From NCBI GenBank assembly GCA_021108375.1, contig JAIORA010000034.1, positions 248,001 through 312,000 on the forward strand: a stretch of DNA of 64,000 nucleotides, in the 5' to 3' direction. The stretch comes from Anaerohalosphaeraceae bacterium. GTDB lineage: Bacteria; Planctomycetota; Phycisphaerae; Sedimentisphaerales; UBA12454. Below are positions 51,221-51,820 of the stretch, in pieces. Below the pieces are notes generated by a model. That model searched no databases. It saw only the letters and a program-made list of their open reading frames with translations, and had not been told where the DNA came from. Both the position numbers and the translations under genes were made by a program. How positions within the stretch are numbered: the stretch's first letter is position 1; every line of letters starts with the position of its first letter.

Positions 51221-51511
51221 TTATAAAATAGGTTCATCTTCCTGTTCGTCGTCATCGGTTTTCCATTTGTCGCTCTCATCGATTTCGCCCATCTCCCGCT
51301 CCATATATTTGAATATCTTATCCTGAAGCGGAGCCACCTTTTGTTGCCATCCCTGCATCTGGCGATATGTCGCCAGTAGCATATCAAGCCTTATAAGTTG
51401 CCATTTCTGGATGCATTCAGGCTCTTTGATGTTCAAAAACGGGTCGCACATAAACGTTCTAACGCCGGCGGGGGTGATTTTGCACAATTCGCAATCTTTG
51501 CACTGTATCAT
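51221..51511 (-). CDS. Small conserved-looking protein with Cys-rich N-terminus
   Basis: 96 residues from ATG 51511 (GAGGTGA upstream); the open frame continues to 51583 without support. CKDCELCKI with two further Cys about 20-30 residues on (MCDPF, PEC) could bind a metal such as zinc. The body is helical (QLIRLDMLLATYRQMQGW) and the tail acidic (SDKWKTDDDEQEDEP). No family is recognised. It is in an operon with the class IV aminotransferase and divergent from the 25-residue basic gene. Confidence 0.65.
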   Translation of the reverse strand: MIQCKDCELCKITPAGVRTFMCDPFLNIKEPECIQKWQLIRLDMLLATYRQMQGWQQKVAPLQDKIFKYMEREMGEIDESDKWKTDDDEQEDEPIL

Positions 51512-51607
51512 AATTTTCACCTCAAAATACGTAGAAACCTGCTTGTTTTTATAGGATTTACTTGCATTGTTTGATAATAACATATATCCTCAGGGTTTGG
51601 AAGTTTT

Positions 51608-51636: not shown

Positions 51637-51668
51637 TATTTATTACGCTTTTGTTTTTGGAGATTTTT

Positions 51669-51746
51669 ATGGCTAAACCCAGACGCAGACGAAAAGTCGG
51701 CAGCAAGAAGAGACGTGCTCGCTGGAAGGTTCGTCACGGCAAATAA
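51669..51746 (+). CDS. Very small, extremely basic protein (25 residues), ribosomal-protein-like
   Basis: ATG 51669 to TAA 51744-51746. GGAG (51659-51662) is 6 nt before the ATG, and a hairpin terminator follows 44 bp after the stop, so it is a stand-alone unit. The peptide starts MAKPRRRRKVGSKKRR and ends with a Trp/Arg/His-containing stretch; 14 of 25 residues are Lys or Arg. The composition and the spacing of basic residues resemble tiny ribosomal or ribosome-associated proteins such as bTHX or the bS22/AURKAIP1-COX24-like family, but I cannot assign it to one. It is too short for most gene callers. Confidence 0.65.
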   Translation: MAKPRRRRKVGSKKRRARWKVRHGK

Positions 51747-51789: not shown

Positions 51790-51820
51790 AAGCCCGGATT
51801 CTATTCGGGCTTTGCTCTTG
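51790..51820 (+). terminator. Terminator of the 25-residue basic protein gene
   Basis: Stem AAGCCCG/CGGGCTT (51790-51796 and 51806-51812) with a 9-nt loop, followed by TGCTCTTGG. The U-tract is moderate. Confidence 0.55.

Follow-up and report, generated by a model that had tools for sequence, protein, structure and literature searches.

A 25-codon open reading frame in the window (the whole stretch of 64,000 nucleotides that we analysed) is a real protein-coding gene under strong purifying selection, and it belongs to a family that is phylum-wide but not universal in Planctomycetota and new to the family libraries searched. The gene probably makes a small ribosomal or ribosome-associated protein, a role to which we assign an overall probability of about 0.75. 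Its product, MAKPRRRRKVGSKKRRARWKVRHGK, is followed by a TAA stop and has lysine or arginine at 14 of 25 positions (56%), with a calculated pI of ~12. A preliminary description of this DNA had reported a 25-residue, 56% Lys/Arg reading frame here, and the coordinates, length and composition are all exact. None of the 308 ATG-started ORFs of 20–60 amino acids in the window reaches at least 50% lysine plus arginine, a count in which the frame of the 25-residue gene was entered in a 42-residue form that also falls below 50%. Features of the locus are collected in Table 1.

Table 1. Features of the 25-codon gene and its surroundings, in window positions
Feature	Position	Strand	Remarks
CDS of the 25-aa protein MAKPRRRRKVGSKKRRARWKVRHGK	51669..51746	+	Frame kept; purifying selection; relatives in order and phylum
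Shine-Dalgarno core GGAG	51659..51662	+	6 nt before ATG; from sequence and relatives
Candidate promoter block TTGCATTGTTTGATAATAACATATATCC	51562..51589	+	Recurring upstream block in relatives
G+C hairpin AAGCCCGGATTCTATTCGGGCTT after the stop, possible weak terminator	51790..51812	+	Without T tract
Divergent neighbour, 96-aa Cys-containing protein (MIQCKDCELCK...)	51221..51511	-	Shares the intergenic region

Conservation and selection

When the peptide was compared with related genomes by tBLASTn, a check put forward in the preliminary description, 54 of 59 gave a match at 76–100% identity, nearly always with one strong match per genome. Among the 41 Sedimentisphaerales genomes with a completeness of 90% or more, 38 carry a near-identical ORF. 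Alignment of the 30 best relatives needs hardly any gaps, and M1, K3, R5–R8, K9, G11–R15, W19, K20 and R22 are invariant among them; conservation of the frame in close relatives, set beforehand as the refutation test, was thus observed. The comparison of synonymous with non-synonymous change, made on 104 aligned copies, gave the same answer. In the true frame, all pairs together give a pN/pS of 0.148 and pairs more than 80% identical a dN/dS of 0.041, compared with 1.37 and 2.61 in the two shifted frames. Differences between copies fall mainly at third codon positions, with column identities of 0.84, 0.95 and 0.59 at codon positions 1, 2 and 3 and of 0.40 upstream and 0.33 downstream.

Outside the ORF, conservation drops and rises again only at the Shine-Dalgarno sequence, where column identity among aligned copies is 80–88% at GGAG compared with ~40% farther upstream. 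A Shine-Dalgarno-like core lies 3–11 nt upstream in 111 of 113 distinct gene copies, in agreement with the well-spaced site of its own that had been described for the gene. The length of only 25 codons, and the existence of a 42-residue in-frame extension from 51618, might be taken as signs of a chance ORF or spurious translation. However, the extension was rejected because its upstream part is not conserved in relatives, and selection together with conservation across the phylum refutes a chance origin, the probability of which we regard as negligible.

Distribution and apparent loss in Planctomycetota

An order-level profile gave weak matches, which on inspection were small ORFs with starts, many of them with a Shine-Dalgarno sequence. 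Phylum-wide counts were made with a second profile, which located the family in 124 of 394 Planctomycetota genomes and in 90 of 149 genomes of the class Phycisphaerae. No recognisable copy was found by profile in about two-thirds of the 394 Planctomycetota sampled, nor in several families of Phycisphaerae. One wider profile scan of contigs comprises the best 80 loci; the counts given here apply to Planctomycetota, and the family may extend beyond the phylum. Forms across the phylum are 24–31 residues long and include MAFKPRRRRKIGSKKRRMRKLRSKKK, MGTKKTGKGRRKIGRKKRRARAKIRHRKD, MGRRRGNGRRKVGRKKRRMRSKIRHRK and MPRKSRRRRKIGSKKRAQRRKQRKH. The core RRK[IVL]G[SR]KKR, in its wider form RRK[IVL]G[SRQ]K[KI]R, is nearly invariant, and some relatives start with GTG or TTG and have a good Shine-Dalgarno sequence. 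Most genomes with the family have one copy. Two copies, either paralogues or assembly duplicates, were seen in G578, G529, G598 and CP070728.1 (L164, L192).

Two single-contig genomes of the order, G033 and G023, are without an intact copy. In G033 (L271, ~1888–1960), a promoter-like TTGCAT, a Shine-Dalgarno-like AGAG and ATGGCT remain beyond the conserved divergent neighbour, and ATGGCT is followed by AAATGGTGTCGGCAC, a stretch similar to the KWKVRH end and lying in a different frame from that of the ATG. This copy is apparently degraded and reads like an internal deletion of the coding core, or possibly a sequencing error. In G023, both the 25-residue gene and the divergent neighbour are missing. 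Since the gene looks broken in one genome and is missing in the other, it is probably not strictly essential and, sequencing error aside, seems dispensable in some lineages. Apparent losses of this kind would be expected if the ribosomal protein were accessory and not part of the core set.

Gene neighbourhood and expression signals

The divergent arrangement with the 96-residue protein is present in 62 of 110 testable relatives. The conserved start of this neighbour is at 51511 and not at the longer ORF start at 51583; it has no Pfam family match and is not part of the ribosomal-type gene. Downstream of the 25-codon gene lies a Na/Ca exchanger in the window and, in many relatives, a putative ferredoxin-type protein, named from its sequence; in the other planctomycete lineages examined the downstream genes are unrelated. 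We found no downstream partner common to all lineages, so it is the product itself that has been conserved. The changing downstream genes likewise argue for a stand-alone gene, as originally proposed, and against a leader peptide. An Arg/Lys leader peptide attenuating the downstream gene would account for the four consecutive Arg codons and for the position of a short ORF upstream of other genes, but its codons vary freely and its residues do not. On the grounds of synonymous variation and changing neighbours we rejected this explanation, which is highly improbable.

The preliminary description fared less well in ascribing a plausible promoter and a terminator to the gene. A strict sigma-70 consensus scan found no promoter upstream, and weak support comes from a recurring upstream block. 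In the window this block (TTGCAT...ATAACATATA) lies 79 nt upstream of the gene in the comparative analysis, and its counterpart CTTGCA...ATA(A/C)CATATA was seen in 23 of 113 relatives, mostly ending 54–61 nt before the ATG. It is possible that the recurring CTTGCA...TATAATACCATATA block is an order-specific promoter candidate missed by the standard sigma-70 scan, and the block could serve the divergent gene too. No terminator was found by a strict consensus scan, and the fold of the hairpin region (z = −1.46) is not exceptional.

Relation to known small ribosomal proteins

Neither the peptide nor the profiles and members of the family matched anything in Pfam, NCBIfam or PDB. The family profile found no PDB chain at E ≤ 10 and did not find mS38, and no eL41 chain was matched in the PDB search. 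The likeness to the smallest ribosomal proteins in general that had been suggested is borne out as the closest resemblance, and the proteins concerned were compared individually. bTHX (PF17070) is a 27-residue basic 30S protein comparable in size and charge, but its motif differs (GKGDxRTxRGKxWRGTYGKxR). It scores below the mean of its own shuffles against the family profile, and scanning the peptide and family members with Pfam brought up no Thx match. In G021 and G025 a true bTHX is a separate gene alongside the 25-residue family gene. The likeness to bTHX singled out in the preliminary description is thus no more than composition gives, and identity with bTHX was rejected. True bTHX genes were seen in two Sedimentisphaerales genomes (L273, L274) and were not recognised in most relatives.

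bS22, which has the AURKAIP1/COX24 domain (PF08213/DUF1713), occurs in Mycobacterium, Cutibacterium, Flavobacterium and Borrelia, that is, in Actinobacteria, Bacteroidota and Borrelia. The motif order of the family, RRRRK-V-GS-KKRR...RH, resembles the RKRHK-V-AT-HKRKK...NRH of bS22, the order common to both being RRxK-[IVM]-small-x-[HK]K[RH]...RH. The family differs in its invariant glycine and in a spacing from [HK]K[RH] to RH that is one residue shorter. bS22 proteins have 28–33 residues compared with 24–31 in the family, and both are helical, by prediction in the case of the family. Members of both are often unannotated, and a GTG start is known in Borrelia bS22. Positively charged residues make up 55–65% of bS22/eL41 proteins (PMC10085706, PMC10618245), and lysine and arginine 61% of Borrelia bS22 (PMC10618245), compared with 56% in the window copy. 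The authors of the Borrelia study expected bS22 in further bacteria, on account of its short length and the possible use of a non-canonical start (PMC10618245).

Tests for membership did not connect the two. PF08213 (COX24_C) matched none of 42 family members at E ≤ 10 and nothing over its cut-off in 40 genomes of relatives; the model is patchy, recognising four of six known bS22 proteins. Alignment of the family with bS22 by hhalign gave probabilities of 5–6%, with E values of 0.006–0.007 for one comparison. Against same-composition shuffles, bS22 scores with the family profile had p values of 0.01–0.56, mostly above 0.1, the best (0.012) being that of one planctomycete bS22. As judged from these comparisons, composition alone accounts for most of the similarity to bS22, and we do not claim bS22 membership. 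The comparison with bS22/COX24 made at the outset therefore stands as a good functional lead rather than as an assignment to that family. Canonical bS22 genes are present in ~7 of 394 Planctomycetota, the estimated contamination of those genomes being 2–6%, and none of the seven has the 25-residue family, a mutual exclusion that is not significant (P 0.07–0.10). Canonical bS22-like genes (MPCGRKKRRPKINKHKRKKRSRQNRHKKR and similar) were located at L227, L228, L229, L230, L231 and L233, some of them possibly contamination.

eL41/aL41 (also called eS32) is, like the window protein, 25 residues long, very basic and helical, but it is eukaryotic and archaeal, and against the family profile it scores no better than its shuffles (p 0.32). 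mS38 (COX24/AURKAIP1), unlike the family, is long, nuclear-encoded and mitoribosomal. Its C-terminal basic region, with a helix, runs along h44; when mS38 is lost from yeast mitochondria, h44 is affected and some mRNAs are initiated less well (PMC6582356). AlphaFold2 predicted for a 31-residue relative an extended basic arm followed by one helix at 14–30 (mean pLDDT 75.6), an arrangement broadly like the end of mS38 along h44. A lone predicted helix is not discriminating between folds.

Proposed role

bS22, mS38 and eL41 share a small-subunit pocket at h27/h44/h45 and touch 23S rRNA (PMC10085706, PMC10618245, PMC7005279). By analogy, we tentatively suggest, at a little under even odds, that the gene belongs to a hitherto undescribed family of accessory ribosomal proteins, acting in this pocket in the manner of bS22/eL41. 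We favour this reading because the ORF is selected as a protein and is widespread, mostly single-copy and stand-alone, and because its size, 56% lysine and arginine, motif order, predicted helix and scattered distribution match. Canonical bS22 is absent where the family occurs, though the lack of overlap is not significant, and the GTG and TTG starts match one reason why Borrelia bS22 was missed. In such a model, the basic N-terminal arm and the following helix would bind ribosomal RNA, most likely in the 16S h27/h44/h45 pocket, and the protein would add a further bridge to 23S rRNA as bS22, mS38 and eL41 do. Once bound, it might stiffen upper h44 and the subunit interface near the decoding centre, and its role would be in tuning initiation or translocation, not one required for every peptide bond.

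The same conservation and composition would fit a planctomycete-specific ribosomal or assembly protein at another rRNA site, comparable to bTHX, bL37 and bL38. bTHX shows that basic peptides of ~25 residues fit other pockets, and the family has no specific sequence link to bS22; its motif order and helix are, however, nearer to bS22 than to the other tiny proteins tested, though not significantly, and we consider another site possible but rather unlikely. Planctomycete nucleoids are often condensed, and the protamine-like composition could point to a non-ribosomal nucleic-acid binder, either an RNA chaperone or a nucleoid protein of the protamine type. A bulk charge neutraliser, however, needs no invariant glycine, fixed length or residue order; here the core shows no variation between deep families and dN/dS is ~0.04, which makes such a function quite improbable. 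Finally, bS22 itself has antimicrobial activity in vitro (PMC10085706), and a single small gene might encode a secreted or regulatory peptide, whether antimicrobial, the toxin of a toxin–antitoxin pair or a signal. The peptide has no hydrophobic segment or signal, and the gene occurs across the whole order, usually as a single copy, and lacks a partner that all lineages share; we regard this as very unlikely.

We found no planctomycete 70S structure in the literature searched, nor any proteomic data placing the protein in purified ribosomes, and a tiny, conserved protein absent from Pfam and NCBIfam would be a clear target for unexplained ribosome density. Genes of this size were expected to be missed, and the family illustrates how widespread genes of ~25 codons escape annotation, GTG and TTG starts contributing in some lineages. 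The bS22/eL41-like reading matters for the history of the bS22/mS38/eL41 site, which could be an ancient common feature or could have been filled repeatedly. It is conceivable, though on balance unlikely, that an unrelated new family independently fills this pocket by convergence; if so, unrelated basic helices of ~25 residues would have come to occupy this site at the decoding centre on more than one occasion.
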